Source of the DNA: Thuidium tamariscinum
Lineage: Eukaryota > Streptophyta > Bryopsida > Hypnales > Thuidiaceae
Direction: 5' to 3'
Assembly: GCA_947034885.2 (NCBI GenBank)
Contig: OX344757.2
Location: 22,190,001 to 22,254,000 of the forward strand
DNA: 64,000 nt
Shown: piece after piece, positions 41,358 through 64,000 of the stretch
Numbering within the stretch: position 1 is the first letter of the stretch
Layout of the letters: the number at the start of each line of letters is the position of its first letter
Made by a program: the position numbers and the translations under genes
The notes under the pieces: generated by a model
Database searches by the model: none
What the model saw: only the letters and a program-made list of their open reading frames with translations
Told to the model about the DNA's origin: nothing

Positions 41358-41500
41358 CTATGGCATAGGTGGACTGTCAAATAATTTCACCAACCTGTAC
41401 AACCAAATGATACATTGCAAATAAGATAATGAACTTTAAGAAATCGAGCTAATGAACATTGAAGCTCAAATACCATGATGTGAATATGGTTTAAACTTAC

Positions 41501-43502
41501 GGACCAAAGCGGTTTTGTGCAACTGGCACTGGGCTCTTAGCACCCTTGCTAGTCGAGCTGTCATCATCTTCTTCGCTTGATGATTCATGATATTTTCTCT
41601 TTGTCCTAACTGAGGTCATTGTGGCCTCAAGGACATTTAGAGGGGCAAGAACTTCTTGAAAAATTGCTAAATCTGATTCAATCGCCACAATATGCCGGCC
41701 AGCCCTTTTACATGCATGAATGCTTGCCCCTGATGCAAATAGAACAAATCATAAGAGAAATTCTTGCATTTAATTGGCAAAAACAACACTTGAAATGAAA
41801 TATGCAAAAAATAAAGACAAACGAAGGTTATAGACTTTAGGATTTAAGTTCTAAAACAACCTGTTGATGCATTGCAGTCCAATACTACGTCGCCAGGCTT
41901 TGAAAGATTCTCGATGAGAATTTGGAGAAATAAGGGATCCTTCTCACGAGCACCTCTCCATGGGATTCCATCTTTTTTCAGTTGACTACTGAGTGTAGTG
42001 AAGTTGTGCAATAGTCCTTCTCCTATTCCATATAGAATGACAAAATTAAAGAATTTCATGATAACAAGATAGTCCTAATTGATTACATTACCACCAAAAA
42101 ACCGTTACCAATGAAATTCTATTATAAAGACTATGTTCTTAAAACTAGGCTGGATTGGTACATTACATTAATATTGAAGCAAAATATTGCATTGCAATAA
42201 AAGATAGAGCCTCATTTAATCCAAGGAAGCCTAGTCTAAAAGGATTTTTTATCCATTAGTCTCTTCTAATTTAAAGAGATCTAGCCCACAATAATTCTAA
42301 ATGCAAAATACCAAACTTTTTTTAACACTAACAGTCTCTAATTTGAATAGTCCTAGTCCATAATATTTCCAAGTGCAAATTAGCAAACATTATTTTCTCA
42401 TTAGCCTCTTCTAATTCAAAGAGGCCTAAATTTTAAAAATTGTAAGTGCAAATTTTAAAAAAAAAAATTCATTAGCCTCTTCTAATCCAAGGAGGCTTAA
42501 ATTCTAATAATTGTCAATGCAAATCACCAAACTTTTTTTTCCATTGACCTATTCTAATCCAAGAAGGCCTAGTTTCTAAAAATTTTAAGTATAAATTGCC
42601 AAACTTTTATTTTCCATTAGCCTCCTCTAATCTGAGGAGGCCTAAACTCTAATATTTGTAAGTGCAAATTACCAAGCTATTTGTTCCATTAGCCTCCTCT
42701 AATCCAAGAAGGCCTAGTCTCTAAGAAATCTAAGTGCAAATTACCAAACTTTTTTTTCCTTTGACATCTTCTAATCTAAAGAGGCCTCTTTCGTTATAAT
42801 TCTAAATGGAAAATAAAAAAGTCTTAAGCCAATTAATTGCAACTTCTTAATAATAATAATTTTTTAAATAAATGAATCAAGTTAGTGTAGGCTATGATTT
42901 ATGAAACTACTTATCCATATAAAAAAGAGTTTACCGCTTAGGTCTGTGGCGTACCCACTTTGCTTTTGGTTTTCTTCAATTGAAAAAGTTGATTCAACGT
43001 CCTTTCCTTTGTGCGAAACTCGAATGTACAATACAATCCAAAATCGCTTTGTCTGTGAAAGTTACAAAAAAAATACAAAAAATTATTAGAAACAAAGGTA
43101 ATTCAAATATTTACAATTAAATTATGAACTTTATAATGACTAAATGTTACTTACAGTACAATTGATGTTTCTGTAGGAAGTCAAGTGCAACTCATTGACT
43201 CCCCACCAATCATGGGCGCACTCAAACCCGTGCACTTTGGCAAATTTATCCACTCCACGTCGTATTTTGGGATTGTCCGAGAGAAACAACACCACTGCAC
43301 CATTATCTTGAAGTGTACCGCTAGCAAATTCAAAGATGGATTCAACAAAATTTGGAGTATATAAGTTCCAAGATGGAACAGTAAGCGGAGGTTGAGACAC
43401 ATGTGGTACTGGTAAACCATCAGGTACATCACCAAAAATGAGATCAAAACATGCCTCATGTTTATTAACTCCACCAATTGGACGATCACGTCCTCTACCT
43501 GC
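41501..43502 (-). other. Beta-class amino-methyltransferase domain, four exons
   Basis: Exons 43155-43502, 42935-43052, 41861-42022 and 41501-41729. The order matches beta-class DNA amino-methyltransferases. First comes F-D-L-I-F-G-D-V-P-D-G (the motif IV position, where D-P-P-Y is usual) and L-Q-D-N-G-A-V-V-L-F. Last comes L-S-K-P-G-D-V-V-L-D-C-N-A-S-T-G-A-S with R-A-G-R-H-I-V-A-I-E-S-D (the SAM-binding motif, where D-P-F-x-G-S-G is usual). Both key motifs deviate from the catalytic consensus, so the copy may be inactive or act on an unusual substrate. Confidence 0.65.
42208..42790. repeat. Tandem array of about 72-bp units, each with a covarying palindromic hairpin
   Basis: Hairpins of about 25 bp begin near 42208, 42258, 42332, 42402, 42473, 42546, 42619, 42690 and 42763, mostly 70-74 bp apart. 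The type sequence is AGCCTCYTCTAATYYRAGGA followed by GGCCT. Between them a spacer (AAGTGCAAATTACCAAACTT and a T run) is shared. In unit 42402 the arms are CCTCTT and AAGAGG. In unit 42619 they are CCTCCTC and GAGGAGG, so both arms changed together. The array fills most of the intron 42023-42934 of the minus-strand gene. Confidence 0.8.
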
Positions 43503-45674
43503 CTATTGACACTACAACATATTTCTTAGTAAAAATTGATCAATATGTATACACAAGAACATAGATAAAATAAATAAGGATGTAGTTAAGAAATTACCTT
43601 TTTTGCAAAGTCCAATATTTGGATTTGCTGAGGGGATTGTTGTCTATTCTTTACCAAGTATTCAATGGCATCGTGAATGGAATATTGGAGAACAAGGCGA
43701 CTTGCATCAACACTTGTAGTGATAGAGCGGAGGGTACTTGCAGTTTGCCATTGTGAAGGTGCAAAAACCACTGTTGACGAAGATTGTAGGGGAGGTGGAC
43801 CTTGTGATGAAGCAACTGGGACAACTTCTGCTCTTGTACTTGCAACTTCACCTTGATGTACGGATGTGGCTCCAGATGCTTTTTCTTTTCGAGTCTTCTT
43901 TGCAGCAGGTTGTACTTTGGAAGTTTGTTTTTTCTTCATCTTAGCATCAATTGGTGCCTCCACAACTTCTTCCTCTTCTTCATCATCGGACAGTTCTTCA
44001 GTTGTTGCCTTTGTCACCACTCCTTTCTCTGTTTGTTCTTTTGCAGGGGCATATGATCTTTTACATTCTAAATACCATGGGCAAGCAACAAGCTCTTCAC
44101 TAGTGAAAGCTTGAGTCTGTAAAGTTGTGAATACACAAGATGGTAAAGTCTTGTCAATCCATGCTCCAAATAGTTTTGGCATCGCCCTCTTGGAAATGCC
44201 TCCTTTTCGAGCTAACTCACAAAGGAAATATCTGGAAAAAAGTGAATCTAAAAAATGAGTACAATGCAATTTGAAAATTAATCTTACAAATACAATAGAA
44301 AATCAATGACAAAACAAAAATAAATGGTAATGGATATACCGATACACGCATCGCAACATAACGTGTTCTATTCCTTCTTGACCAATGAATGGTACTGTGC
44401 GTGAATATTTTGATTTCTTTCCAAAAAACATATAGAAGGCGTGATCCCAAAGAATAATTCGATAACGCTCAATGTAATCACCAATCCGGTCAAGAGAATC
44501 ATCAACATCCCATTTCACAATGATGCGCTCAGAAGCTATTGTAGCATTGAACCATATGGTGGCCGCTTCTTCTAACTGCAAGATGTAAGAAAGATGCATT
44601 AGTTTTGTATATAAATTTGAAATTAGGAGGTAATGCTATATGACACTCATACAAAAATTATTTAATTCACTTAATGCCCAAAAAAAAGTGGAGAAAAAAT
44701 CATCCACCTCTGCCCAAAATGTTGCCTTTGGCAACCAATTCTTGAGTTTTTCTTCGGTTGCCACAGGTACTGGAAATCGAAGCGCTGCCCGATTCATATC
44801 ACTTGAATTCCACCAAGACAACCAACGGCTTTTGTAAACTGGGAGGACAATGGTTGCAGCCAAGTGTTGGAGTTTATCTAAAGTCATATCTGGACGATCA
44901 TATCTGCTCCAATGAAGATTGATCTGAAAAATCAAATAGAAAAAATGAATTTGAAGGTTTGTAGGAAATAAAAGATCTACTACCAAGAACTTCTTTTAAT
45001 TTTAAGTAGAAACAACTCAATTTCAATATGAAATGAATGAAAGTAAATGTAATGCACCTCTTCTAGCCACCGTGTGCCGTGCTTGGGGTTCCCAACTGCA
45101 CTCAGCTTATCAAATTCAGACCGGAGAGACTTGACTTTGGCATTGGCTGCCCCTTTCATAGCATCATGCAAAGCTCTTGAATTCTTGTCTTCTTTGGTTG
45201 TTCGTTCTTCGTATAAGCTGGCAGCTTCATCCGCAGCAGCTAATACTTCTTGCTATGAAAAATAAAGAGAAAAAGTCAAATAGCATGAATTATAATTTCA
45301 AGTTTTAGAGAATCCAAATATTGTTTAGCAATTCTTTTACCCGATATAAGAACCTGATGAAGACATCAGAGGTAAGTGGATACCATGGATAAGGTTTACC
45401 CCTATTCTCAGAAGTTCGATAGTGTTCTTCAGTGAGGAGATCTTTGAAATCTTCTAGATTCAACGATCCATAAGTATTCACTCGATGAAGACGATGTACT
45501 AAATTAGTCTTCACATGTGCATTTTCTGTAGACCTGTTGAAATAATATGACAAATTAGTATAAACTAAATTCTTTAGAATAAGACTTTATGTATCTTGTT
45601 ATTGCAATGTACTAATAGCTAAACAACTAAAATCATATAATAAATACATTATAAGAAGAGGCACCACATTTGAC

Positions 45675-46219
45675 CTGTTTATGTCATTCATTGCGTTCAT
45701 TAGAACTCCAATGAATCCTTTGGTCTCAAGCAAAATTGAATCAGCCCAAATATGCTACTTCTGTTCTTCAGCATGCATGTTGTTGATGTAAGCCGTCCAT
45801 GCCATAAGCCGGTGATTACCGTCCCAAACAAAAAACATAAACCCAGATAGGCATGAACGATCTTCATGGCTTTGCAGTTGTTCTTCAAAAACTGCATTCT
45901 CTGTAGTCCACAAAGCATCCCAACCACTAGAAATCTCCTCGGTGACCCTTTGGGTGAGGCCCTTGTCATTAGTGATTGATACATACATCACCCTATCACC
46001 TTCTCGATATTGATGGACAAATTCAGATTGAAGGCGAACAACATCTGTTTAGAGAATTGGCCTCACCATAGGGAGCGATATCATACGGCATAAGGGAATT
46101 TTAAAACGACTTGATTCATGCGGCTTAAATCGCAATTCTCGTATGATTGAATTGGAGTCCAGTCTTTCTTTCACTCGAAAAGCATCTCTAGTTTCTTCAC
46201 ATGTTAGCAAAGGTGGCTC
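45675..46219 (-). other. ParB/sulfiredoxin-superfamily domain exon (two in-frame stops)
   Basis: This 545-bp exon starts after a TTTTCAG acceptor (E-P-P-L-L-T-C) and ends before GTCAAA. Its strongest motif is V-W-D-G-N-H-R-L-M-A-W, the D-G-x-H-R signature of ParB/Srx-fold proteins, preceded by V-T-E-E-I and a Y-V-S-I-T strand. TAA at 46049-46051 and TAG at 45755-45757 lie in the reading frame. The residues on both sides of each stop continue the same protein, and no phase-correct intron removes them. A single base change would explain each. Confidence 0.6.
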
Positions 46220-47140
46220 CTGAAAATCCATGATCACAATTTCAAGTAAGTAATATATACTTTGAATTTTGTTATTGAAAATAAAACTAACTTGAAATGT
46301 AGTCACACTACAAAACAAATAAATAGGCTTGAATCCCTCTTTGATTCCAAGGAGCGTTACGACATGTAACTTTCAATTTGAACTTGCCCTTATTAGGTGA
46401 AAATACATGAGAATTTTACAACATCAGACTTGGCCTCAAATAATATGAACCAAGGCATAAATTCTAATAGACACTAATAAATAAATACAATATCAATTAA
46501 TTGAATTTAGGCAATGGCAACTATGTTGGGCTTTTACATAGGTGTTTATGAGTAGGGTAATAGGCCAAGATCCCTCTTTAATTTTGAACAGCATAAAAGC
46601 ATCAAATTATCTATTTGAATAGATCTTTAGTATTTATAATTGAAAATAGGTCTACAACATCAATCATCAATCTATTGACCAAATAATGGTAATCTAAGCA
46701 TTTGAATGAATTTATGCAAAATAGGCTAAGACCCCTTCTCTATTTCGAGGAGCAAAAAAAAAGAACTATCTGTCTAAAAAAATCTTTAGAATATAACAAT
46801 ACAAAAGGTATATATCAATTAAATCATTAGACATTTAACAATGGCAATAAAGGGTAGCACTCTAATGAGTTCTAATAGATAGTAAAGATCCCTCTTTGAT
46901 TTCGAGGAGCACTTAGACATACAACACTTTATTAAAAAAAATGCATTATATAAAAATACAAGAGGTATTTTCAATATTAATTACTTATCTTTAGACAATG
47001 TCAACAAAGATGCATATTTAAACAAACTTATGCATGTAGGTCTAGGCTCCTCCTTGATTTCGAGGAAGACAAGGAAGTAGATCCTTGTGCTTCAAGAAAC
47101 ACTATTTTCAAAGAAAATGACAAAATTCTTAAAAGACTCA
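46220..47140 (-). other. Intron sequence left of the retrotransposon, with dispersed hairpin repeats
   Basis: Part of the intron between exons 60876-61034 and 45675-46219. It contains at least four single hairpin-type words of the CCCTCTTTGATTTCGAGGAG kind (near 46335, 46735, 46889 and 47050). No coding exon is seen. Confidence 0.55.
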
Positions 47141-47145
47141 CCATC
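47141..47145. repeat. Target-site duplication, left copy (CCATC)
   Basis: CCATC directly precedes the TGTGGC terminus of the left LTR and is repeated at 60290-60294 directly after the GCGACA end of the right LTR. Five bases is the usual length for Ty3/gypsy integration. Confidence 0.95.
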
Positions 47146-47458
47146 TGTGGCAAGACATATTTTTGATCTTTCCATTTAAAGTCAGTATGGAGCGGAAAGT
47201 CGAAAATTTAGCAACCGGATTTGTTCAGGGAACGGGTAAGATCCAGAAGTAGTACCAGATAATGTTGTAGAGACCGGTGGCAGAATAATTCCGGTTTATT
47301 ACGACGGAATACCAGAACGGAAAAATTTCGGACCCTACAGAACGGATTCTATCCGGATTAAGTCCCAGAACGGAATGGATGATTTCCGGACTTGGACCGA
47401 TCGGATGAGAACGGGAACGGATGATCAGGAACGGAAGACCGGATCCATTTCTGGAAAG

Positions 47459-47465
47459 TATATAA
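47459..47465 (+). promoter_or_regulatory. TATA box of the 5' LTR (copy at 56982-56988)
   Basis: TATATAA followed by GG, in a well-formed plant TATA context. It lies about 353 bases upstream of the LTR reading frame. A start near 47490-47495 would make the LTR frame the first long frame of any transcript from here. Confidence 0.6.
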
Positions 47466-47817
47466 GGCCTGACATTTTCAGTTGGCCCATTTGCTCTCAG
47501 GCGCTTCGTTGTGTGTTTTTCAACCCTCAGCGTTTTCCGCCTTTTCTGTGAGTTGGTTTTCCGCGCGTGTTTGGTGGCGCAATTTTCTGTGACGCGGCTG
47601 TCAGTATTAGCAGCGGGTGTTTTGTCAGAGCGGGCAGTTGTCAGCGGCGCGGGTTTCAGACTGTGCGCTGAGACGCTGGTGTGTGGAGAGGAGTGTGTGT
47701 GTGTATGTGCAGGTGGTTATTACGGGCAGATTACTTTTGTATTTGTGATTGTGAGTGTGTGTGAGGAACGGGACGTGCGGCTAGGAGAGGAGTGAGGTAG
47801 TTTTCTGGATAGTTGCC

Positions 47818-49500
47818 ATGCCGCAGCTACGCCGGAAGAGAACCGAGTCCACTACACCCCCACCCTCAGGGATAAAGCTGAAGAAAGTAGTTCCGCTCAT
47901 CCCTTCCACAGAGCCGGAGAAAAGCAACTTGATGGCGGACTTAACCGCAATGGGGTGTCTAGGGTTAGCAGAGATACCCTGGGGTTTCAAGGAGGAGCGG
48001 ATGGTGAAGGAGCTGAAGGGCAAGGTGTCGAATCAGTTCGACAACACGGCGCGGGGAATGCCGCACAAATGGACGGAGGCGCACTGGAGGGCCGTATACG
48101 GGTTCAAACACCAGGGGCACGGACCGGCCGGGAGGAAGGTAGACTTCCTCCAAAACAAGTTTAGTGGCACCCCTCACCCGAAGGACGGATACCGGATCAT
48201 GGACTGCAACGAAGACAGGCATAGGCGCCTGTTGAAGTTTCTGCTTCCGGTCCTTCATCCGGAGAAACCAACCCGGATCACGATCGGCCTGGCCAACACC
48301 ATTTTCGGTGCGCTGATCGGAGACCGGAAAGTGGACTGGGGCCGGATCATACAGGACCTGATCACCCGGTTACTGAAGAACCTCGGAGGGAGTAGGGCAA
48401 CTCCGATCTCCCCCTACCTCTTCCACCTCTACCACCATCTACAGCTCCTTTCGGATACGGAAGAGAAGACGTGGCACACCCAGAAGATAGTCTTGACGTA
48501 CGGGGAGACGTCAACGGATGATGAGGAGAGCTTCGAGTCCGAGACAGAGCGGGAGGACTCGGATAAGGGAGAGGAACCGGAAGTTCCGCTCGTGAAGCGG
48601 CAGAAGACCACACCGCCGAACACGAGGGGATCTCCTCCGGTCCGACACAATCCGGGAACGGAAGGCAGAGCAGGACCATCCGAACCGGGTCAGGCCGAAC
48701 CAGCAGCAGAGGAAACGGATCCCAGTGATCCGTTCCTGCAACTGACGGAAATCCTGTGCAACATCCGAGCGGATTGGGAGGTCAAGCGGATCGTCCTGGA
48801 GAACATCGCGGGGATGGTCAATGGCAAACCGGATCATACTCTTCCGACCGTGGTAGGGAATTGCATCGCCTCGCCTGCGGATCTCGCCAAGATGGAGGAG
48901 GAAAACCGGAAACTTCAGGAGGAAGTTGACGGTTTGAAGGCGGAGCTCCTTGTTCTCAGGGACAACGAGGCCGCTACCAAGGAGATGGCGGCAGAGACCG
49001 TCAAATTGGCGGAGCACGTGAAGGCAACATTCGGGGAACCCGGATCGGCTGTCATCCGGGCTCAACTGTTTGACGAAGAGGTGCACAAGGAGAAGAAACT
49101 ATCCGGAAGCCGAATAGTCCGGATTCTGTCCGACTTCTCCGAAAAGGTGGAGACGACTTTGGTGAAGGTTCGGGAGGCGGCCGAACGGATGGAAGACTGT
49201 AGCCGGAGACTGACGGAAATTCCGGTCAGACTCTCCAATCTGTCTCTACCGGATATTTCCGAAGGGTTGCCTCAGAGACCAGGGAAGGATAGGATGCCGC
49301 AATCCAAGAAGTCAGGGCGAGCGTCAACGGGCAACCGGGAGGCGGCAATTCAGTTGTCGGAGTCTCCTACGAGTCCGGTTACTGGAGCTCCGGTTGCAAC
49401 AGACGGAGAACGGAATCGGAACCTCACTGAGGTCTTCGAGCAGATCAGTAGGGCGGAAAGCCCGACTATAGGATCTAGGGTAGCAGAGCCGGATACGTAG
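47818..49500 (+). CDS. LTR-encoded protein of unknown function, 560 aa (5' LTR copy)
   Basis: An intact frame from ATG to TAG wholly inside the LTR. I recognise no domain. The N-terminus is basic (L-R-R-K-R) and proline-rich. About residues 55-235 form a compact, probably helical region containing G-H-G-P-A-G-R-K-V-D-F-L-Q and P-I-S-P-Y-L-F-H-L-Y, reminiscent of domains in other plant mobile-element proteins. Residues about 240-265 are strongly acidic, followed by V-K-R-Q-K, a possible nuclear signal. About 365-420 is a coiled coil (E-E-E-N-R-K-L-Q-E-E-V). Codon use and CGGA-rich composition match gag and pol, so it belongs to the element. It would be the first frame of a transcript from the TATA box at 47459. 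Confidence 0.75.
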   Translation: MPQLRRKRTESTTPPPSGIKLKKVVPLIPSTEPEKSNLMADLTAMGCLGLAEIPWGFKEERMVKELKGKVSNQFDNTARGMPHKWTEAHWRAVYGFKHQGHGPAGRKVDFLQNKFSGTPHPKDGYRIMDCNEDRHRRLLKFLLPVLHPEKPTRITIGLANTIFGALIGDRKVDWGRIIQDLITRLLKNLGGSRATPISPYLFHLYHHLQLLSDTEEKTWHTQKIVLTYGETSTDDEESFESETEREDSDKGEEPEVPLVKRQKTTPPNTRGSPPVRHNPGTEGRAGPSEPGQAEPAAEETDPSDPFLQLTEILCNIRADWEVKRIVLENIAGMVNGKPDHTLPTVVGNCIASPADLAKMEEENRKLQEEVDGLKAELLVLRDNEAATKEMAAETVKLAEHVKATFGEPGSAVIRAQLFDEEVHKEKKLSGSRIVRILSDFSEKVETTLVKVREAAERMEDCSRRLTEIPVRLSNLSLPDISEGLPQRPGKDRMPQSKKSGRASTGNREAAIQLSESPTSPVTGAPVATDGERNRNLTEVFEQISRAESPTIGSRVAEPDT

Positions 49501-49679
49501 GTATTAGGACTTTCCTGTTTTTGTAGTTTTTAACTTAGGAACGGATCAGGAGGAAATCCGGTCCGGTTTAGGAACTTGGAGCGGGTTGGAATCCGTTCCG
49601 GTTCAGAAGTAGGTAGGAACGGATCCGCCGAGCGTTAATCGCGGCGGACTTGTATGGCGCTTTTTGCTTTTTTGCCCAT

Positions 49680-49687
49680 TATTTAAG
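49680..49687 (+). promoter_or_regulatory. Second TATA-like box in the LTR (copy at 59203-59210)
   Basis: TATTTAAG lies 180 bases past the stop of the LTR frame, after a T-rich tract. A start just downstream would produce a genomic RNA that lacks the LTR frame and has a leader of about 1.2 kb before gag. This is a candidate only. Confidence 0.3.
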
Positions 49688-50777
49688 TCAGTCCCCTCGC
49701 GGTGGACTGGGAGTCTTTTCCTTTGCATTATCTTTGTGTATTCCATTTCCTCTTGCTTTGCGCGTGTATCTCCCGGGTTTGGCAGGGCGGCGTGACGTGG
49801 AGTTAGGAAGGCGCAAGTGGTTTTGCAGGCGACGTTCTCCCTTTGGTGTTTATTTTCCGCGTCTGAGTATATGAGAACGGGTAGAGAAGAGTTGGGAGTG
49901 TAATTCTAGTGCCTCAGCGCTTCTAGGACTTAAGATTCCGGGTGAGAAAGCCGTTGTTAGGCTAGACGAGAGGGAGGGATTCCTTAATCGTGCTAGAGCT
50001 CCTGGGTGGGAAACCCAGTTGAGTGTCCGATCTCCTGTGAGGTCTCACCGTCTTTGTGGCAAACGGAAGAGTTCCGGTTGACGTTGGAACGGACGGATAC
50101 ACTTGTAGCCACCTGGCTCCCCAGGAACGGAAAGTAGTGTCAAAGTCGTTGTAGTATGAGAAGATCGTACGGGGGATCTCTGTGTGACCTACAGTCCGGA
50201 TCTTTGTCTGGATTGTTGTGAGGGATCAAACCGGATCTGAAGTATTTTTAGAATTAACAGGTAGAAAGTGGGTCTTCAGCCACTATAAGTCACGGAAGGA
50301 GCGGTGGGCCTACCGCTCACAAAATCAAGCGGCGACCCCTCTGATGGTAAAACAGAGGCAAAACCAAACCGGATTGAGGAACGGGTGTGGACGGATCATC
50401 CGGAACGGATTGGTCCAGAGAGGAAACCAAGAGCGGAACTCGTTAGGGAGCGGATCCGTTGCAGTCTGACGGAACGGATAAAATCCGGGAAACCGGAAAA
50501 GTGAAGGAACCGATCCGTTCCGGACCAGATTGCTAGAATATCAGTTTTGAACGGGATAACGGGTTGTCGTCTCGGGTTATTTGTGTATTTCCGGTTCTAG
50601 ATCTAGAACCGGATTATAGAGTTTTGGGAGCTGTCCTATCTTAATCGCTTAACTAAGCCAGATACTTCACAAAATCTCGCGGGTTCGATCTTTAGAGTCA
50701 CTTAGTTATACTCTACAGTGATTTTTGTGAGTATAACAGGGAATTTACTTACCCTGTGTTGCGACATGGCAAAAATC

Positions 50778-50795
50778 TGGCGCCGCTGCCGGGGA
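50778..50795 (+). other. Primer-binding site, tRNA-Asp type
   Basis: TGGCGCCGCTGCCGGGGA starts 11 bases after the 5' LTR. From memory of plant tRNA-Asp, whose 3' end complements TGGCGCCGTTGCCGGGGA, it matches at 17 of 18 positions. tRNA-Asp priming is known for Athila-like elements. Confidence 0.85.
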
Positions 50796-50911
50796 TTCTA
50801 AAGCTATCGGCTTCGTTGCGACAGAAAATAGAAGGGACAGTCTTGTTTTCCCCATTTTAGTTTACCATTTCTCGGAGTTAGCTTTCTTATAGAAATAGAG
50901 ATTTCTAATCC

Positions 50912-52588: not shown

Positions 52589-55500
52589 CGGAATCAGCCG
52601 GAACGGTCTGTCAGGGGCAGGAAGAAAAAGCACAGAAGGAAGCCGGAATCGAGCAGTGAGTCTGATCCGCCCCCTTCCTTACGAGTTCCGGAACCGGAGA
52701 AAGACCACTCGGAGGAAGGAATGGAGCGGAACCGGATTCCGATCGACATTAGTGCCGAAGTACGAGCGGATATCTCTGCAGAAAAAATAGTGCCAGAACG
52801 GAAGAAAGTTACTTTCAATGACACTCCAGTGATACTGAACCCGGACGTGAGGGCCCACGAGTATAACATCATCCAGGACATCAAGGACCAGAAGGCGAAC
52901 GTGACGATCGGACAGCTCATCCACGACAATGTGATGTACCAGAAGCTGATCCGGGATGCCTGGACACGGAAACGGAAGAAGAAGGTGAAACTTCCATCTG
53001 TCGCGGTGAACTACTCTAAACCGGAGGATTCCGGAGCACCAGAAGTCACTGTGGAAATAGAAGGGTGTTCTATTCCAAAGGTTCCTATCGATGGTGGATC
53101 AGGAGTGAACCTGATGTTGGAAGAAACAGCATTTGATCTGGGATTCACTACGTTTGAAGCTACGGATCAAGTTCTTCGTATGGCGAATCAATCGCGAGTA
53201 AATCCGGTTGGGAGATTGTCACAGGTCCCAACCCGGATCGGAGGAACGGATTACCTCCTGAACTTTGTCATCATCCGTGTTAACAAAGGGAGACCTTTTC
53301 CTATGTTGCTTGGGAGGCCATGGCTGTACTCTGCGCGAGTACTCGTGGATTGGGGAGCCAAGGAGCTGGTTGTGGGGAAACCTTCAATCCGGATACCCTG
53401 GGTCACCAAGCGTCACTTGGGTGAGACTAGTGACTCAGAAGGTTACACATCCGACTGGACGGATCCGGAAGATTCCGATCCATCCTATTATGTGGATTCA
53501 TTTGGGCACGAGTCGGAGTCAAACTTTGGATTCTCTAACGCTGTGTTAGAATACACTCCAAAGGAGGATCTTAACCCAGTTTCTGAGGATCGAAGTTTAG
53601 GGGAGTCCAGTGTTCCGCTCACGGCTGAGTGGATCGCCCTACAGATCAGGAACGGAAATCTTCCGGTCAACAGCAGTACGTCAAATAAAGGAGAATGGGG
53701 ACATTTGGTCCACGATCCGGAAGAAGCACACACGGAGAAAATCAAGCCGGTTGTCGCATCCACGGATTATGAGAAGGAAGAGATCGATCCCGGCAAGAGT
53801 TTCTATCTGAACAAATTTTTGCAGGATACGGAGAGGCCCGGGTACACTCAACTGTTGAGGGAGTATCTGGATATTTTTGCCTGGAAGCCGACTGACTTGA
53901 CAGGGATTCCCCCGCATTTAAGAGAACACCACATTGACTTGACGGAAGGATCCATTCCAGTCCGTCAGCGACAATACCGGCTCAACCCCAAGTACTCGTT
54001 GATGGTGAAGGAGGAGATCGATCGGTTACTGGAAGCCGGATTCATCTACCCGGTCAACAATTCCGAGTGGGTCTCTCCCATTGTGGTGGTTCCAAAGAAG
54101 GTAGGAACGGATGGAAAGGTCAAGATCCGAGTATGCCAGGACTTCCGGAAGCTGAATGCAGCAACCCGAAAAGACTACTTTCCACTTCCGTTCACCGATA
54201 TCATTTTGGATCATGTAGTTGGACACGAGTGTTACAGCTTCCTGGACGGATTTTCTGGATACAACCAAGTATTCATCCGATGGTGTGACCAGCTGAAAAC
54301 CACATTTACAACAGAATGGGGTATGTACGCTTTCACCAGGATGCCGTTTGGTTTGTGCAATGCACCCGGAACCTTTCAACGATTAATGATGGACATTTTC
54401 AAAGATTTTCTTCGACACTTCATCGAAATTTTTATAGACGACTTTGCGGTTTTTAGTGACCGGAAAAGTCATCTCGAATGTTTACAGAAAACTTTTGAAA
54501 GATGCCGGGAGACCAACTTGAAGTTGCATCCGGGTAAATGTTTTTTCGGGATGAATTCCGGAATCCTGCTTGGACATATGGTAAGCCAGAACGAACTGCA
54601 AGCAGACCTGGAAAAGGTAAAGGTAATTCTATCTCTACTACCTCCCACGAGCGTAAGAGAGATTCGGGGTTTCCTTGGATGTGTAGGCTACTACCGCAGA
54701 TTCATTGACGGATACGCCAAGAGGGCTATACCTCTTACAGAACTTCTCAGGAAGGATGTGGAATTTGAGTGGACCGGAAAACGACAGCAAGCCTTCGAGG
54801 ATCTCAAAACCCAGCTTGCTCGAGCTCCGATCCTCTGTGTTCCGGATTGGGCAAAGGAGTTCCACGTCACCATCGATGCATCCGGTTGGTGTCTGGGATC
54901 TATTCTGTGGCAGTTCGACCAAGAGAAGCGTGAGAATCCGATCTATTATGCAAGCAGACAGATGAGTTTGGCAAAACGGAATTACACGACCACAGAACGA
55001 GAGGCGCTAGCAGTGGTGTATTTCTGTAAGAAATTCCGACATTACCTATTGGGGTATAAGGTAATTTTTCACACAGACCATGACTCTTTGAAATATCTTG
55101 TAAATAAACCGGATCTGTCGGGACGGATTGCAAGATGGATTTTACTTTTACAAGAGTTTAACTATGAGGTTAGAGTTAAACCGGGAAAAGCAAATTCAAA
55201 CGCGGATTACCTCTCAAGGCAGAGAGGGAAAGAATCCGTAGCAGATATCTCTGCTGAGTTTCCGGATGAGTTTCCGGACCCTCTGAAGATTCCGGATGGA
55301 CAAGAGAATCCGGATTCTTCTTTAGAAGTCTTTCACCTCAACAATGAGTCTGTTTCAGAGTACCAAGACGTCATAGATTATTTAGTAGAGTCTAGATACC
55401 CTGAACAGATGGATCGGGAGGAGAAAGAGATCTTTCATGGAAAAGTGGCTCCTTACACCCTGATTAGGGGAGTCCTTTTCAAGTTAGGAGCGGACGACAT

Positions 55501-56557
55501 TCTCCGACGATGCCTGGAACCGGCGGAACAGAAGAAGGTAATACGTGCACTTCACGCTGGAAGCTCTGGAGGGCACTTCGCCTCCATGAGTACAGTTAAC
55601 CGGATCCGGTCGACCGGATACTGGTGGCCGTTCCTACACCGAGATGTGAAAAATTTTGTTCGAAGTTGCGATCAGTGTCAACGGACAGGAGCACCATCCT
55701 TCCGGAACCACTGGCCGCTTACTCCTATCATTCCCCTAGCACCATTCGAAAAATGGGGCATAGACTTTATTGGACCCATTTTTCCGGTCAGTGCAAGGAG
55801 GAAGAGGTACATCATCCTGGCGACGGACTATGCAACGAAGTGGGTAGAAGCCAAGGCGACAAGGAAGAATGACGCTGAAACTTCCGCGAACTTTTTGTTT
55901 GAGGAGATTCTCATGCGGTTTGGACACCCATTGGAGCTGGTCAGTGACCGAGGGACGCATTTCCTCAACGATGTCATCATCGACATCACCAACAAATACC
56001 TTATTAAGCACCGGAAGACGACTCCCTATAATCCAAAAGCGAACGGATTGACGGAGCGTGCAAACGGAATCATTGGTAAGATTTTGAATAAGATGGTTTC
56101 CGCTCACAAGACTGACTGGGATCGGAAACTACCTTCGGCAGTCCATGCGTACAATACAACAGAGAAGAATACAACCGGACAGACGCCGTACTTTTTGGTT
56201 TTTGGCCAAAATGCAGTTCACGGAGTGGAGTTAGAGGTGGAAACATTCCGGGTAATGGCAGCCCAGAATGCTGAGCCAAGGGTGGATATACTTCCACGAC
56301 TTCTTGCAATTGAAGAATTGGAGGAGATCCGGACTGCAGCCTTGGAAAGGACCATGAGCATCCAGTTCAAACGGAAGGAAGACTATGACCGGAAGATCCC
56401 GGCTGACCACGGAATCCGAGAGAACGGTCTTGTCCTTCTTTACGACAACCGACACAAGGATTTCCCGGGAAAGCTACATACACGATGGATGGGGCCTTTC
56501 CGAGTCAACCAGGTATTCCAGAACGGATCCCTGCAACTTGAGAATCTGCAAGGATAG
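52520..56557 (+). CDS. pol: Pol polyprotein: protease, reverse transcriptase, RNase H, integrase
   Basis: Open from the codon after the gag UGA to TAG 56555-56557, 1345 codons in the gag frame. No well-placed ATG start is seen, so expression by readthrough is likely. Positions are counted from 52529. Protease has I-D-G-G-S-G near 187. Reverse transcriptase has R-M-P-F-G-L-C-N-A and the catalytic F-I-D-D near 634. RNase H has T-I-D-A-S and T-E-R-E-A-L-A near 779-840. Integrase has the H-H-C-C zinc site near 1010-1050 and the D, D, E triad near 1079, 1140 and 1177 (I-D-F-I-G; S-D-R-G-T; L-T-E-R-A-N-G). A G-P-F-type motif lies near the end. A conserved-looking N-G-S-R-V-K-K-Y-L tail continues in frame past the TAG up to TGA 56630-56632. 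Confidence 0.95.
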   Translation, partial: RCEVELPGGMENLVHRVSTRSSTRNQPERSVRGRKKKHRRKPESSSESDPPPSLRVPEPEKDHSEEGMERNRIPIDISAEVRADISAEKIVPERKKVTFNDTPVILNPDVRAHEYNIIQDIKDQKANVTIGQLIHDNVMYQKLIRDAWTRKRKKKVKLPSVAVNYSKPEDSGAPEVTVEIEGCSIPKVPIDGGSGVNLMLEETAFDLGFTTFEATDQVLRMANQSRVNPVGRLSQVPTRIGGTDYLLNFVIIRVNKGRPFPMLLGRPWLYSARVLVDWGAKELVVGKPSIRIPWVTKRHLGETSDSEGYTSDWTDPEDSDPSYYVDSFGHESESNFGFSNAVLEYTPKEDLNPVSEDRSLGESSVPLTAEWIALQIRNGNLPVNSSTSNKGEWGHLVHDPEEAHTEKIKPVVASTDYEKEEIDPGKSFYLNKFLQDTERPGYTQLLREYLDIFAWKPTDLTGIPPHLREHHIDLTEGSIPVRQRQYRLNPKYSLMVKEEIDRLLEAGFIYPVNNSEWVSPIVVVPKKVGTDGKVKIRVCQDFRKLNAATRKDYFPLPFTDIILDHVVGHECYSFLDGFSGYNQVFIRWCDQLKTTFTTEWGMYAFTRMPFGLCNAPGTFQRLMMDIFKDFLRHFIEIFIDDFAVFSDRKSHLECLQKTFERCRETNLKLHPGKCFFGMNSGILLGHMVSQNELQADLEKVKVILSLLPPTSVREIRGFLGCVGYYRRFIDGYAKRAIPLTELLRKDVEFEWTGKRQQAFEDLKTQLARAPILCVPDWAKEFHVTIDASGWCLGSILWQFDQEKRENPIYYASRQMSLAKRNYTTTEREALAVVYFCKKFRHYLLGYKVIFHTDHDSLKYLVNKPDLSGRIARWILLLQEFNYEVRVKPGKANSNADYLSRQRGKESVADISAEFPDEFPDPLKIPDGQENPDSSLEVFHLNNESVSEYQDVIDYLVESRYPEQMDREEKEIFHGKVAPYTLIRGVLFKLGADDILRRCLEPAEQKKVIRALHAGSSGGHFASMSTVNRIRSTGYWWPFLHRDVKNFVRSCDQCQRTGAPSFRNHWPLTPIIPLAPFEKWGIDFIGPIFPVSARRKRYIILATDYATKWVEAKATRKNDAETSANFLFEEILMRFGHPLELVSDRGTHFLNDVIIDITNKYLIKHRKTTPYNPKANGLTERANGIIGKILNKMVSAHKTDWDRKLPSAVHAYNTTEKNTTGQTPYFLVFGQNAVHGVELEVETFRVMAAQNAEPRVDILPRLLAIEELEEIRTAALERTMSIQFKRKEDYDRKIPADHGIRENGLVLLYDNRHKDFPGKLHTRWMGPFRVNQVFQNGSLQLENLQG

Positions 56558-56654
56558 TGGCTGGATACTCGCGTGAACGGATCAAGGGTGAAGAAGTACC
56601 TAGAAGCTACTTCTTCAGATGAGGGGGAATGATGTTCGCGAGGACGCTCACAGA

Positions 56655-56668
56655 TGAGGAAGGGGTAA
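56655..56668 (+). other. Polypurine tract
   Basis: GAGGAAGGGGTAAT-type purine run directly against the TGTGGC start of the 3' LTR. This is the expected primer position for plus-strand DNA synthesis. A second purine run (GAGGGGGAA) lies about 35 bases upstream. Confidence 0.75.
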
Positions 56669-59600
56669 TGTGGCAAGACATATTTTTGATCTTTCCATTT
56701 AAAGTCAGTATGGAGCGGAAAGTCGAAAATTTAGCAACCGGATTTGTTCAGGGAACGGGTAAGATCCAGAAGTAGTACCAGATAATGTTGTAGAGACCGG
56801 TGGCAGAATAATTCCGGTTTATTACGACGGAATACCAGAACGGAAAAATTTCGGACCCTACAGAACGGATTCTATCCGGATTAAGTCCCAGAACGGAACG
56901 GATGATTTCCGGACTTGGACCGATCGGATGAGAACGGGAACGGATGATCAGGAACGGAAGACCGGATCCATTTCTGGAAAGTATATAAGGCCTGACATTT
57001 TCAGTTGGCCCATTTGCTCTCAGGCGCTTCGTTGTGTGTTTTTCAACCCTCAGCGTTTTCCGCCTTTTCTGTGAGTTGGTTTTCCGCGCGTGTTTGGTGG
57101 CGCAATTTTCTGTGACGCGGCTGTCAGTATTAGCAGCGGGTGTTTTGTCAGAGCGGGCAGTTGTCAGCGGCGCGGGTTTCAGACTGTGCGCTGAGACGCT
57201 GGTGTGTGGAGAGGAGTGTGTGTGTGTATGTGCAGGTGGTTATTACGGGCAGATTACTTTTGTATTTGTGATTGTGAGTGTGTATGAGGAACGGGACGTG
57301 CGGCTAGGAGAGGAGTGAGGTAGTTTTCTGGATAGTTGCCATGCCGCAGCTACGCCGGAAGAGAACCGAGTCCACTACACCCCCACCCTCAGGGATAAAG
57401 CTGAAGAAAGTAGTTCCGCTCATCCCTTCCACAGAGCCGGAGAAAAGCAACTTGATGGCGGACTTAACCGCAATGGGGTGTCTAGGGTTAGCAGAGATAC
57501 CCTGGGGTTTCAAGGAGGAGCGGATGGTGAAGGAGCTGAAGGGCAAGGTGTCGAATCAGTTCGACAACACGGCGCGGGGAATGCCGCACAAATGGACGGA
57601 GGCGCACTGGAGGGCCGTATACGGGTTCAAACACCAGGGGCACGGACCGGCCGGGAGGAAGGTAGACTTCCTCCAAAACAAGTTTAGTGGCACCCCTCAC
57701 CCGAAGGACGGATACCGGATCATGGACTGCAACGAAGACAGGCATAGGCGCCTGTTGAAGTTTCTGCTTCCGGTCCTTCATCCGGAGAAACCAACCCGGA
57801 TCACGATCGGCCTGGCCAACACCATTTTCGGTGCGCTGATCGGAGACCGGAAAGTGGACTGGGGCCGGATCATACAGGACCTGATCACCCGGTTACTGAA
57901 GAACCTCGGAGGGAGTAGGGCAACTCCGATCTCCCCCTACCTCTTCCACCTCTACCACCATCTACAGCTCCTTTCGGATACGGAAGAGAAGACGTGGCAC
58001 ACCCAGAAGATAGTCTTGACGTACGGGGAGACGTCAACGGATGATGAGGAGAGCTTCGAGTCCGAGACAGAGCGGGAGGACTCGGATAAGGGAGAGGAAC
58101 CGGAAGTTCCGCTCGTGAAGCGGCAGAAGACCACACCGCCGAACACGAGGGGATCTCCTCCGGTCCGACACAATCCGGGAACGGAAGGCAGAGCAGGACC
58201 ATCCGAACCGGGTCAGGCCGAACCAGCAGCAGAGGAAACGGATCCCAGTGATCCGTTCCTGCAACTGACGGAAATCCTGTGCAACATCCGAGCGGATTGG
58301 GAGGTCAAGCGGATCGTCCTGGAGAACATCGCGGGGATGGTCAATGGCAAACCGGATCATACTCTTCCGACCGTGGTAGGGAATTGCATCGCCTCGCCTG
58401 CGGATCTCGCCAAGATGGAGGAGGAAAACCGGAAACTTCAGGAGGAAGTTGACGGTTTGAAGGCGGAGCTCCTTGTTCTCAGGGACAACGAGGCCGCTAC
58501 CAAGGAGATGGCGGCAGAGACCGTCAAATTGGCGGAGCACGTGAAGGCAACATTCGGGGAACCCGGATCGGCTGTCATCCGGGCTCAACTGTTTGACGAA
58601 GAGGTGCACAAGGAGAAGAAACTATCCGGAAGCCGAATAGTCCGGATTCTGTCCGACTTCTCCGAAAAGGTGGAGACGACTTTGGTGAAGGTTCGGGAGG
58701 CGGCCGAACGGATGGAAGACTGTAGCCGGAGACTGACGGAAATTCCGGTCAGACTCTCCAATCTGTCTCTACCGGATATTTCCGAAGGGTTGCCTCAGAG
58801 ACCAGGGAAGGATAGGATGCCGCAATCCAAGAAGTCAGGGCGAGCGTCAACGGGCAACCGGGAGGCGGCAATTCAGTTGTCGGAGTCTCCTACGAGTCCG
58901 GTTACTGGAGCTCCGGTTGCAACAGACGGAGAACGGAATCGGAACCTCACTGAGGTCTTCGAGCAGATCAGTAGGGCGGAAAGCCCGACTATAGGATCTA
59001 GGGTAGCAGAGCCGGATACGTAGGTATTAGGACTTTCCTGTTTTTGTAGTTTTTAACTTAGGAACGGATCAGGAGGAAATCCGGTCCGGTTTAGGAACTT
59101 GGAGCGGGTTGGAATCCGTTCCGGTTCAGAAGTAGGTAGGAACGGATCCGCCGAGCGTTAATCGCGGCGGACTTGTATGGCGCTTTTTGCTTTTTTGCCC
59201 ATTATTTAAGTCAGTCCCCTCGCGGTGGACTGGGAGTCTTTTCCTTTGCATTATCTTTGTGTATTCCATTTCCTCTTGCTTTGCGCGTGTATCTCCCGGG
59301 TTTGGCAGGGCGGCGTGACGTGGAGTTAGGAAGGCGCAAGTGGTTTTGCAGGCGACGTTCTCCCTTTGGTGTTTATTTTCCGCGTCTGAGTATATGAGAA
59401 CGGGTAGAGAAGAGTTGGGAGTGTAATTCTAGTGCCTCAGCGCTTCTAGGACTTAAGATTCCGGGTGAGAAAGCCGTTGTTAGGCTAGACGAGAGGGAGG
59501 GATTCCTTAATCGTGCTAGAGCTCCTGGGTGGGAAACCCAGTTGAGTGTCCGATCTCCTGTGAGGTCTCACCGTCTTTGTGGCAAACGGAAGAGTTCCGG

Positions 59601-60289
59601 TTGACGTTGGAACGGACGGATACACTTGTAGCCACCTGGCTCCCCAGGAACGGAAAGTAGTGTCAAAGTCGTTGTAGTATGAGAAGATCGTACGGGGGAT
59701 CTCTGTGTGACCTACAGTCCGGATCTTTGTCTGGATTGTTGTGAGGGATCAAACCGGATCTGAAGTATTTTTAGAATTAACAGGTAGAAAGTGGGTCTTC
59801 AGCCACTATAAGTCACGGAAGGAGCGGTGGGCCTACCGCTCACAAAATCAAGCGGCGACCCCTCTGATGGTAAAACAGAGGCAAAACCAAACCGGATTGA
59901 GGAACGGGTGTGGACGGATCATCCGGAACGGATTGGTCCAGAGAGGAAACCAAGAGCGGAACTCGTTAGGGAGCGGATCCGTTGCAGTCTGACGGAACGG
60001 ATAAAATCCGGGAAACCGGAAAAGTGAAGGAACCGATCCGTTCCGGACCAGATTGCTAGAATATCAGTTTTGAACGGGATAACGGGTTGTCGTCTCGGGT
60101 TATTTGTGTATTTCCGGTTCTAGATCTAGAACCGGATTATAGAGTTTTGGGAGCTGTCCTATCTTAATCGCTTAACTAAGCCAGATACTTCACAAAATCT
60201 CGCGGGTTCGATCTTTAGAGTCACTTAGTTATACTCTACAGTGATTTTTGTGAGTATAACAGGGAATTTACTTACCCTGTGTTGCGACA
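56669..60289 (+). repeat. 3' LTR (3,621 bp)
   Basis: Second copy of the LTR at a constant offset of 9,523 bases from the 5' copy. It holds the same reading frame (57341-59023), encoding the identical protein. It ends TTGCGACA before the CCATC duplication. Confidence 0.97.
57341..59023 (+). CDS. LTR-encoded protein of unknown function, 560 aa (3' LTR copy)
   Basis: Same protein as at 47818-49500, with no amino-acid difference. A transcript starting at the TATA box at 56982 would carry only this frame, with nothing of gag-pol. It could therefore be expressed from the 3' LTR as a separate message, the way the MMTV sag frame lies in a 3' LTR. That comparison is positional only. Confidence 0.7.
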   Translation: MPQLRRKRTESTTPPPSGIKLKKVVPLIPSTEPEKSNLMADLTAMGCLGLAEIPWGFKEERMVKELKGKVSNQFDNTARGMPHKWTEAHWRAVYGFKHQGHGPAGRKVDFLQNKFSGTPHPKDGYRIMDCNEDRHRRLLKFLLPVLHPEKPTRITIGLANTIFGALIGDRKVDWGRIIQDLITRLLKNLGGSRATPISPYLFHLYHHLQLLSDTEEKTWHTQKIVLTYGETSTDDEESFESETEREDSDKGEEPEVPLVKRQKTTPPNTRGSPPVRHNPGTEGRAGPSEPGQAEPAAEETDPSDPFLQLTEILCNIRADWEVKRIVLENIAGMVNGKPDHTLPTVVGNCIASPADLAKMEEENRKLQEEVDGLKAELLVLRDNEAATKEMAAETVKLAEHVKATFGEPGSAVIRAQLFDEEVHKEKKLSGSRIVRILSDFSEKVETTLVKVREAAERMEDCSRRLTEIPVRLSNLSLPDISEGLPQRPGKDRMPQSKKSGRASTGNREAAIQLSESPTSPVTGAPVATDGERNRNLTEVFEQISRAESPTIGSRVAEPDT

Positions 60290-60294
60290 CCATC
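60290..60294. repeat. Target-site duplication, right copy (CCATC)
   Basis: Repeats 47141-47145 exactly and abuts the end of the 3' LTR. Confidence 0.95.
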
Positions 60295-60875
60295 CAATCC
60301 CAAATTAGGACAAAATCAACCTTGTTTGGATCAACCTATTTTTATTTGACAAGTTGTAATCCCTCTTTGATTTCGAGGAGCACTTCATTGCTCTAATCTA
60401 AAATGCAACTCCCTAATCACAAGCATAGAAAAGGCTCCTATGCTTCAAGAAGTGTCTTCAACTTTCAAGGCTCCTATAGTTTCTAAGAGCCTCCTCTAGT
60501 TCGAGGAGGCTAATAGTGCACTAATTACACTAACTTCAATTTGAAAAAATTAAGTATAGTTATCTCCTACAACTACTTATTGATGTAGTTGTCACTCACA
60601 AAGAAGGTTATAGATGCTAAATGTACATAATCTCTATTTTAATCATTTAATAACAAAATCTAAATTATATGTAGATAGAAGGATTCAATAAGTTTACAAA
60701 CTTGACAACTAAACAACAATTTTGTATAATTGCAAACTTTATAACTATACCAAATGAATCCTTGCATTGTACATGGTGAAGCAATAATCCTATTGAATTA
60801 TAGGATCCTATTTTGATTACATGTAATTAATTAAACTTATTAGATTCACTTGATTCAAAAATAAACCAAACGTAC
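60295..60875 (-). other. Intron sequence right of the retrotransposon, with hairpin repeats
   Basis: Continuation of the interrupted intron of the minus-strand gene. It holds two hairpin-type words: CCCTCTTTGATTTCGAGGAG near 60361, and GCCTCCTCTAGTTCGAGGAG followed by GC near 60488. No exon is seen. Confidence 0.6.
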
Positions 60876-63182
60876 CTGTGGTGAATTGTCAGAAACGTTG
60901 CTTAATATCCCCTCTTGATCTACTAATGGCACCTCTACATTACCACCATTTATAGCTGGAACAATTGTAGGATTCATTTGCTGCATAGAGAGACCTTGGT
61001 CTGCTTCCTCGCTACTTAGTGCATGTCCCGAGTGCTACAAAAAGAATTAGAAACAAAATAAATACAAATTTTTGTTTTATAATAGTTACACAACAATACT
61101 TTCAATGACTTAAAAGATTTAAATCCAAAAACTCACAATGACTTTAGATGTTGTTTCCAGAATGTCTGTAGATGCAATCATATCCTCTCCTCCAACCACA
61201 TGATGTTGTGGATCTATTGTTGGACCTTTGTCTTGATCTTCCATTCCCTGAATTGCCCAAAAAATTAATTAAAAATTGCACTATCATACAATCATGCAAC
61301 AAGAAATCTATATAACTACAACTATGAAACAAATATAAATTGCAATAATAAGATGAACAATTTTTGGAACTACAAAAAAATTTGAGTGAATATTTCTTGC
61401 ATGAATAACATTAAATAGGCATGATAAGAGCTCAAAAATTCTGAATTATCAAATTGATCAATTATTTGACCCCAAACTAACATGCCCTTGCTTAGCATCT
61501 TATTGGCTCTTGTGGACAGTGAATACCCCTATTTGATTTTGAGGAGCCTTGATTGATGATCTACTAAAGTTGAATACATTTCTAATTTTTCACAAATTAA
61601 TACAAGACACTATACCTTCATTAACTTTAAAAAAACAAATATCCTTCTTTCATTTCCAAAAAAGCTAAGAGATGCAAATTGCTCAAATTTTTAAAAGCTA
61701 CCAACTAATTCTCAAATATGGAGTACTTACAAGTTTCACAGCAAAGTGACAAAACATGTAGTAAAGTACATTATTAAACCAACTATCATGCTCACCTATT
61801 AATCTATCCAAAAGCAAGGAATGCAATTCACAATCATGATTAACATTCCAATTAAATAAAAATTGGGCTCTAAAGAATGGTTGATAACAAACCTACAAAA
61901 ACAAGTCTCGACCCCTTTTGCTTCAATTTCCAAATCATAATCAAAATCATCCAATGCATAGAGTATTTTAAATCAAGCATTTTGTTTCACTTTGTTAAAC
62001 ATCTCTAAATATTTTTAGCTAGTATAGCTAGATAATAAACTTCTCTGGCCAAGAGAGGGCTTCTTTGAATCGAGGAGGGTTGGGTTGAAGTAACCTTATT
62101 GGCATAGTTGAGACTAAAATAAAAATAATTTAAAATTTAAAGAATTATAATATCCTTTCAAAACTGAAGATGAAAGGTTGACTTCCTCATATAAAAGCTC
62201 TATGCATAACCAAACTCAAAAACTTGATTTTATGGCCTTTTGACATTGGATATAAAAGTTCTGATTTTGAATCTTTAAAAAATAAATGTAATTATAATTT
62301 TAAATTCAAAATCAGTACTTTCAAATTCACCAAATTAAACCACACTAAGTCCTTTCAAATTCTTCATCATTAGTAAGATTGGATTGTTGAAATAAAATTT
62401 TGGTTAATGCCATGTCTACCATGGAGGACCGAAACGGAAACCTTAATTGTTGATAGCCAGTACCGTCCTTGATTTTTATTATCTCTTTCACCAATACTAA
62501 CAAATGAATACAATAAAAATCAATACATTAGTGGATTACATATAAATTTACATCAAAAGCTTCTTGACAATAATACTTGATTTCAATGTACTAACTTCAA
62601 CCTAACCACGTGTATTGTAAGTTGCAATTAAGAGAAACCTAAATCCAAATTAACACAAATTTGATGATATCTATTATATTCAATTTGTCTATCTAGAATA
62701 TGTGATCAAGAGACTTACATTTGATTTTGAAAAACTGAAATTTTCATGCTAAAATGTGTAGCATGATTCAAATTGCCTAAACTTAAGAGAATTGTTACTT
62801 CAGTAGCAAGATAGGAAGAATAAAGTGAAAAAGGCATCAACAATGAAAGTAAAAATGATCCATGAATTTTAACCCTAATAAATTCAAGACTCTACAAATC
62901 TTTGATGTCAATATACTCTTCTTGAAAGAGAAACCAAACAAATTTCAATACAGATTGCAATGGATCAACAAAACAAATAAAATAATTAATTTGATGTAGT
63001 ATAAATTATACAGTTTGTGAATGGGCAATTAACCTTCTCGAGTGCATATGCTTAACTTGTCATAGAAAAATCAAATCCTTAACACTACGAATTCTTTGAT
63101 GGCTTTGCGCTAAAAATTGTGATTAATTCCTTCCATGGCATAAAGGTATTTACAATAATTTATGTAATAATCAAGTGCAATG

Positions 63183-63942: not shown

Positions 63943-64000
63943 CAGAATAGAAGAGGTATGCAAACTTCCCATTCGGTTTCTCGGAATGCAGCTAGTGCTC

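Follow-up and report, generated by a model that had tools for sequence, protein, structure and literature searches.

A ParB/Srx-methyltransferase-like gene head-to-head with a transposase-like gene in a multicopy DNA transposon of the moss Thuidium tamariscinum

In plants, DNA methylation keeps transposons silent, and a small number of Mutator-like elements (MULEs) are known to counter this through accessory proteins. Mobile elements that carry a DNA-modifying enzyme fold of their own are also known, e.g. the KDZ elements with TET/JBP in fungi and the DIRS-type elements with a Dam-like domain. MULEs with accessory genes have been described as combining terminal inverted repeats (TIRs), a target site duplication (TSD) of 8-11 bp and a transposase with a second gene, as in maize MuDR (mudrA/mudrB), Arabidopsis VANDAL/Hiun (vanB, vanC) and Yarrowia Mutyl (mutB) (PMC6446971); VANC of this group is an anti-silencing protein (PMC10398659). 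Fusions of a ParB/Srx domain to a methylase are described in bacterial and phage ParB-methylases, such as Bce_0392 of B. cereus, with a ParB domain for which DNA nicking is reported, and in polyvalent proteins, where they occur in mobile or conflict settings (PMC5512222). A beta-class (permuted) N6_N4_Mtase in a eukaryotic nucleus, again fused to an extra domain, is presented by N4CMT of bdelloid rotifers (PMC8885841).

Here we describe a transposon with TIRs and a TSD in which a transposase-like gene lies head-to-head with a multi-exon ParB/Srx-methyltransferase gene, a pair that recurs genome-wide.

The element and its second gene

The window, i.e. the whole stretch of 64,000 nucleotides that was analysed, contains the following parts of one such element:

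39318..39326, no strand: left copy of the 9-bp TSD GTTTTATTG; its right copy directly follows 70466
39327..39377, plus strand: left TIR of the transposon, starting CAGGCTTGCTA, with an inverted match to the right end
39327..64000, no strand: window part of the putative Mutator-like DNA transposon, whose whole length is 31,140 bp including a nested retrotransposon

The element spans 39327-70466, its right end lying beyond the window (numbering extended), with GTTTTATTG flanking both sides and TIRs of ~50 bp. Its transposase is encoded on the plus strand just past the window end, at 65786-69556 in the same numbering. Sites resembling TIRs at 14.2 and 22.1 kb of the window were rejected, as they do not lie at the ends of this element. 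Three elements were followed over their full length, including the TSD copy on either side, namely that of the window and two further ones, here termed A and C. The latter are near-identical, full-length 14-kb DNA transposons on different contigs, which align at 99.2% over 13,996 columns with shared ends, have TIRs of ~66 bp and share the head-to-head order of transposase and ParB-methyltransferase gene; in A, the two TIRs align over 67 columns at 82%. A further copy (b) matches at 98.9-99.0% over the ~12.4 kb compared.

The second gene was rebuilt from the window sequence as 13 exons on the minus strand, running from 61244 to 41358 and comprising 1060 codons including the end stop. All 12 introns have GT-AG borders and the phase is consistent throughout, which bears out the exon chain proposed in an earlier sequence-only reading of this DNA. 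The motif order proposed there is likewise recovered: DGNHR is found at codon 222 and is followed after 565 codons by the motif IV position (codon 787) and after 744 codons by the SAM motif (codon 966). The gene and the lesions in it are as follows:

61137..61244, minus strand: putative exon 1 of the sequence-only model, without counterpart in four relatives
60876..61034, minus strand: putative exon 2 of the same model, without counterpart in four relatives
47146..60289, plus strand: nested Ty3/gypsy-type LTR retrotransposon in an intron; LTRs of 3621 bp with 2 mismatches, TSD CCATC
46049..46051, minus strand: in-frame stop TAA, codon 146, in exon 3
45755..45757, minus strand: in-frame stop TAG, codon 244, in exon 3
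45675..46219, minus strand: exon 3, ParB/Srx-like domain with VWDGNHRLMAW, holding the two in-frame stops
45341..45533, minus strand: exon 4, middle region; break matched in relatives
45058..45252, minus strand: exon 5, middle region; break matched in relatives
44708..44923, minus strand: exon 6, W-rich middle region; break matched in relatives
44340..44575, minus strand: exon 7, middle region; break matched in relatives
43598..44231, minus strand: exon 8, closing part of the middle region, then the lysine-rich linker; break matched in relatives
43155..43502, minus strand: exon 9, methyltransferase fold (first half), with DVPDG at the motif IV position
42935..43052, minus strand: exon 10, methyltransferase fold
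41861..42022, minus strand: exon 11, SAM-binding motif I DCNASTG
41501..41729, minus strand: exon 12, last part of the methyltransferase fold, followed by an acidic tail
41358..41394, minus strand: exon 13 with the stop codon (exon model of the window copy only)

Counterparts of exons 1 and 2 were sought in relatives D, E, A and C and none was found; the W-rich region of exon 6 has no match in Pfam. Matches of copy A to the window exons (~23-50% identity) break at codons 271, 335, 403, 471 and 553, and since these breaks nearly coincide with the window exon ends at codons 271, 335, 400, 472 and 551, the chain is not a product of chance.

Both stop positions of exon 3 are open in the aligned relatives, and treating the first stop as part of a 22-nt 'intron' was rejected because this breaks the reading frame. 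A 14.7-kb intron of the gene is mostly made of the nested ~13-kb LTR retrotransposon, a separate insertion that is no part of the ParB-methyltransferase finding itself. The window copy is a pseudogene, with two in-frame stops in its ParB exon and an LTR retrotransposon in its long intron. The earlier view of it as a nuclear plant gene gives way: rather than an ordinary host gene, it is very probably an accessory gene, the second of two in a multicopy, Mutator-like lineage of DNA transposons, of which the window contains a decayed copy.

The ParB/Srx-like and methyltransferase-like domains

A single-exon protein search with the ParB exon recovered 64 environmental relatives, and the structure model of one of these displays a ParB/Srx fold. 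The [D/E]GNHR motif is strongly conserved among the aligned relatives, with G and N present in 62/62 and R in 60/62. Members of the ParB/Srx superfamily are described as having a conserved arginine in an active-site pocket motif (PMC5512222), and in our own reading the R of [D/E]GNHR probably corresponds to it. In Pfam, PHROGs and NCBIfam the ParB part has no match of practical value, the best rows among the 64 relatives being DUF1015 (0.0042, in one) and DUF5531 (0.013, in three), which we rejected as chance-level. PF02195 has no match in the genome translated in six frames (363 Mb, 19 contigs), and a whole-protein query against 5.8 billion proteins, using words from the first 500 residues and proteins of similar length only, returned none.

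The C-terminal part matches PF01555 (N6_N4_Mtase) at 28.0, 39.2 and 27.6 bits (Pfam cut-off 26.7), and the methyltransferase profile aligns to CcrM (6pbd) over positions 53-274 with both motifs in order and the catalytic half preceding the SAM-binding half, i.e. in beta-class order. Together with the structure model, these matches uphold the proposal that a ParB/Srx-like and a beta-class amino-methyltransferase-like domain are joined in one gene, the Pfam sequence match being to the methyltransferase only and the ParB fold coming from the structure model. The outcome that the earlier reading named as refuting it, no hit to ParB/Srx or N6_N4_Mtase, thus did not occur. The site that the profile places on DPPY of CcrM is the motif IV position of this family, where a canonical (D/N/S)PP(Y/F/W) is found in none of the 25 copies examined; most have D-x-P-[D/E], with D or E in the fourth position in 24/25. 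Since motif IV is non-canonical in all 25, we file the domain as a fold homologue and not as an active member, and use amino-methyltransferase as the name of a fold rather than of an activity. As the catalytic DPPY is absent and D-x-P-[D/E] occurs in nearly all copies, the original chemistry may have changed or disappeared.

The encoded protein would act on the transposon's own DNA, with the ParB/Srx domain as a predicted NTP-dependent DNA-binding or nicking module and the methyltransferase-like domain potentially binding SAM and recognizing or modifying an exposed base. Both domains might mark the element, counter host silencing or help integration, like the accessory proteins of other MULEs. 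If the gene is indeed a transposon accessory gene, anti-silencing or self-marking is the role that we tentatively favour, with a confidence just short of even. A possible, if somewhat doubtful, variant of the same transposon reading is that the methyltransferase fold is catalytically dead and serves for binding only, in a MURB-like transposition co-factor, for which METTL14 provides a comparison case. The placement of D-x-P-[D/E], never a DPPY/SPPY-like sequence, on the catalytic site of CcrM would suit such a protein; against it, the first D of motif IV is kept in 24/25 copies and the P in 23/25, and motif I, D-C-[N/T]-A-S-T-G, is kept in the three copies aligned, motif residues that dead domains often lose.

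Transposase identity and copies across the genome

The transposase shows D...D...E-like motifs read by eye (FDHVKR, FMADS/N and CNLAETVHNKW). Pfam gave no match for two ORFs and nothing convincing in 47 distinct sequences, and Foldseek with a poor AF2 model of the core (mean pLDDT 69; input incomplete in the first catalytic region) returned noise only. The label 'Mutator-like' rests on these motifs, on the TIRs and on the TSDs of 9 bp (window copy) and 10 bp (A and C), which lie within the MULE range. This might be an undescribed eukaryotic DNA transposon lineage, possibly, as the transposase matches no Pfam model, a superfamily of its own, in which a ParB-type clamp or nickase and a SAM-dependent enzyme with the new motif D-x-P-[D/E] would write or read a private mark telling its own DNA from the host's; we regard this fuller proposal as unlikely.

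Each of the three exons tested has at least 150 matches in the genome, so that the related copies envisaged earlier do exist, and the option of a mobile-element origin raised with them is borne out by the inverted repeats with TSD, the paired transposase and the near-identical full-length elements. Among the matches listed, a ParB exon and a transposase lie within 25 kb of each other in 76 pairs, of which 69 are head-to-head and 7 are not; shifted controls give 5, 4 and 2 pairs. Of the 150 listed ParB exons, 121 are without a stop and 87 are followed on their strand, after 2.6-6.7 kb, by a listed methyltransferase exon, an arrangement that occurs 0 times in the shifted control. The median dN/dS of 0.25 (IQR 0.16-0.30; ParB exon only, 55/435 non-independent pairs from 30 loci) suggests that this exon is under selection.

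That a host gene or family was instead captured by chance in Pack-MULE style, the transposon being independent of it, appears improbable. MULEs are reported to carry pieces of host genes (PMC6446971), and 82 of the 150 ParB matches listed have no head-to-head transposase among the matches listed, which the scoring of up to 150 candidates per query may or may not account for; however, the two-gene layout is common to the window element and A despite identities of 46-49% in the transposase and ~41% in the ParB exon, exon breaks and both domains are retained across copies, and the dN/dS is low. That a retrotransposon insertion simply broke an ordinary host gene and left it a pseudogene is barely credible: the exon chain and the nested LTR element are both real, but this account is already contradicted by the full-length elements on different contigs, the TIRs and TSD of the window copy and the genome-wide pairing with a transposase in fixed relation, to which the number of exon matches adds.

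Comparison with known systems

Marchantia DN4MT are plant 4mC methyltransferases of the bacterial amino-methyltransferase type, for which we know of no ParB domain or transposon location, while the KDZ and DIRS-type cases belong to other hosts and differ in enzyme family and in transposase or recombinase class. A literature search gave no transposon with a ParB-methyltransferase among the matches listed. PADLOC returned generic methyltransferases only, and no confirmed relative was found among viral contigs or, for the methyltransferase profile only, among prokaryote genomes; phage matches, among those listed (10 of 28), mainly align with the SAM half.

The transposon reading accounts for a gene family whose ParB side is missed by standard domain libraries. 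If it is true, a ParB-methyltransferase that was selected and multiplied more than 100-fold would be a new weapon in the contest over transposon silencing, and would open a test of whether plant mobile elements mark their own DNA.

The rotifer N4CMT differs in its SPPY motif, its activity and its chromodomain, and has been reported to be of bacterial origin rather than cargo of a transposon, with no eukaryotic homologs according to that 2022 paper (PMC8885841). Compared with known MULEs, the element differs in having a ParB/Srx-methyltransferase as its accessory gene and a transposase without a Pfam family; the word 'methyltransferase' is absent from the main text of the MULE source (PMC6446971). 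Unlike the bacterial and phage ParB-methylases, the moss gene is nuclear, intron-rich and located in a eukaryotic DNA transposon, has a middle region and linker of ~500 residues between its two domains, and carries a non-canonical motif IV.

Gene model and decay of the window copy

The sequence-only reading had proposed a phase-consistent chain of 13 exons joining a ParB/Srx-like domain to a beta-class amino-methyltransferase, and rebuilding it from the raw sequence recovered the same minus-strand chain, in phase from its start ATG (61244) to its stop codon (41358); each of the 12 introns has GT-AG borders. The sole break lies in exon 3, the ParB exon (VWDGNHRLMAW), which carries two in-frame stops (46051-46049 and 45757-45755). 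A 22-nt GT-AG piece spanning the first stop was rejected as an intron because leaving it out destroys the frame. Since that piece is not an intron and environmental relatives of this exon read uninterrupted at both positions, the window copy is a pseudogene. The match to element A, a related transposon elsewhere in the genome, breaks at codons 271, 335, 403, 471 and 553, at or close to the exon ends of the window gene (271, 335, 400, 472 and 551); the exon breaks thus appear supported by relatives, except those of exons 1 and 2, which are putative and unverified, no counterpart having been found in the four relatives searched. Imperfect direct repeats, spaced by about 72 nt or a multiple of it, lie at 42254-42829 within the intron that separates exons 10 and 11.

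Intron 2, which separates exons 2 and 3, reaches 14.7 kb because an LTR retrotransposon, separate from the ParB-methyltransferase finding, is inserted there:
47146-60289, LTR retrotransposon with two 3621-bp LTRs (2 mismatches), flanked by CCATC

It encodes gag, reverse transcriptase, RNase H and integrase, and the mere two LTR mismatches point to a recent insertion. Each LTR also contains a 571-codon open frame (47785-49500 and 57308-59023, plus strand), the first of which had no match in Pfam; a long ORF within an LTR is unusual. By eye, a frame in the DNA flanking copy A resembles it.

Transposon anatomy and genomic copies

The window copy has the anatomy of the other elements, with inverted repeats ending at 39327 and 70466 and GTTTTATTG flanking both ends. 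It is 31.1 kb long with the nested retrotransposon and about 18 kb without it, and its transposase, 46-49% identical to that of A and bearing one stop of its own, is found just beyond the window:
65786-69556, plus strand, transposase of the window element

Two further sites in the window (14196-14237 and 22097-22144) resemble the terminal repeats of element A and face outward, and therefore probably represent termini of two further decayed relatives. The window also contains a pair of inverted repeats, each roughly 400 nt long (1670-2090 and 29288-29772), that lie 27 kb apart and are 79-89% complementary in pieces. The left end of the window transposon lies about 1.5 kb from a minus-strand open frame (37313-37864) with a weak match, below threshold, to the PF01467 cytidylyltransferase family (19.8 bits, cut-off 21); from its motif it is likely a choline-phosphate cytidylyltransferase.

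The genome searched comprises 363 Mb in 19 contigs, with the window at C9:22190001-22254000. Exon 3 yielded 604 first-look candidates, the methyltransferase (motif IV) exon 534 and the transposase core 774; for each query all 150 candidates scored were matches. Several exon 3 matches have identical scores, and by our own count 121 of the 150 listed have no internal stop. A listed methyltransferase exon occurs within 12 kb of 87 of the 150 ParB matches, always downstream on the same strand and 2.6-6.7 kb away; shifting positions by 1 Mb left no such pairs. Among the matches listed, 76 pairings of a transposase core with a ParB exon lie within 25 kb (5, 4 and 2 in shifted controls), and 69 of these are head-to-head, with a median spacing of 6.8 kb. 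A head-to-head transposase partner is listed for 68 of the 150 ParB matches and both partners for 36, counts in which, with 150 matches listed per query, a missing partner does not equal true absence.

Contig C11 holds 29 of the best 150 ParB matches, more than any other, several of them near-identical copies. At 17.5 Mb it is smaller than the others of C1-C11, as far as lengths and match positions show, and is possibly a TE-rich or sex chromosome.

Methyltransferase fold and constraint on the ParB exon

Single exons of the window gene gave nothing convincing in domain searches. The joined C-terminal part scored 28.0 bits against PF01555 (cut-off 26.7), and those of copies D and A scored 39.2 and 27.6 bits, the match beginning past the motif IV position in D and covering the SAM half only in A. 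A profile of these three copies aligned to CcrM across both halves in beta-class order (E 1.4e-5), placing the plant D-x-P-[D/E]-G onto DPPYN of CcrM; motif I reads D-C-[N/T]-A-S-T-G in all three. Motif IV was surveyed in 25 copies: 20 exons hand-picked from the 150 listed for diversity and an open frame, together with the window copy and copies A, b, D and E. The aromatic residue is missing in every one; the first position is D in 24, the third is P in 23 and the fourth is D or E in 24. The methyltransferase fold is thus present, but with a catalytic motif that is unusual throughout.

In a functionless passenger gene, dN/dS would be expected to move towards 1. For the ParB exon, the only one sampled, the median is 0.25 (interquartile range 0.16-0.30) across 30 loci, calculated from the 55 of 435 pairs with usable dS (0.05-1.2), which share branches and are hence non-independent. 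We argue from these low values that this exon was constrained while the elements multiplied.

Predicted function and relation to known systems

Starting from what is established, i.e. the element structure, two-gene layout, folds and constraint on the ParB exon, we infer a function for the protein. The ParB/Srx domain would load onto, or nick, element DNA, and the SAM fold would read or change a base, or act on another target, such that the element might be shielded from silencing or its integration aided. This would be the simplest synthesis. The unusual motif IV is compatible with a version of this transposon-encoded role in which the protein is a dead enzyme acting by binding, which we regard as a tentative though serious prospect. 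Among MULE accessory genes, mudrB serves integration and vanC acts in anti-silencing (PMC6446971; PMC10398659). A ParB-methylase of B. cereus has a ParB domain that is reported to nick DNA (PMC5512222).

No confirmed relatives were found in the viral or prokaryote contigs searched. No ParB-methyltransferase in a plant transposon occurs among the literature matches listed, whose coverage leaves out most subscription papers; this silence is weak evidence of absence. Each constituent is known on its own: MULEs with two genes, ParB-methylases and, in eukaryotes, a beta-class methyltransferase, the bdelloid N4CMT (PMC8885841).
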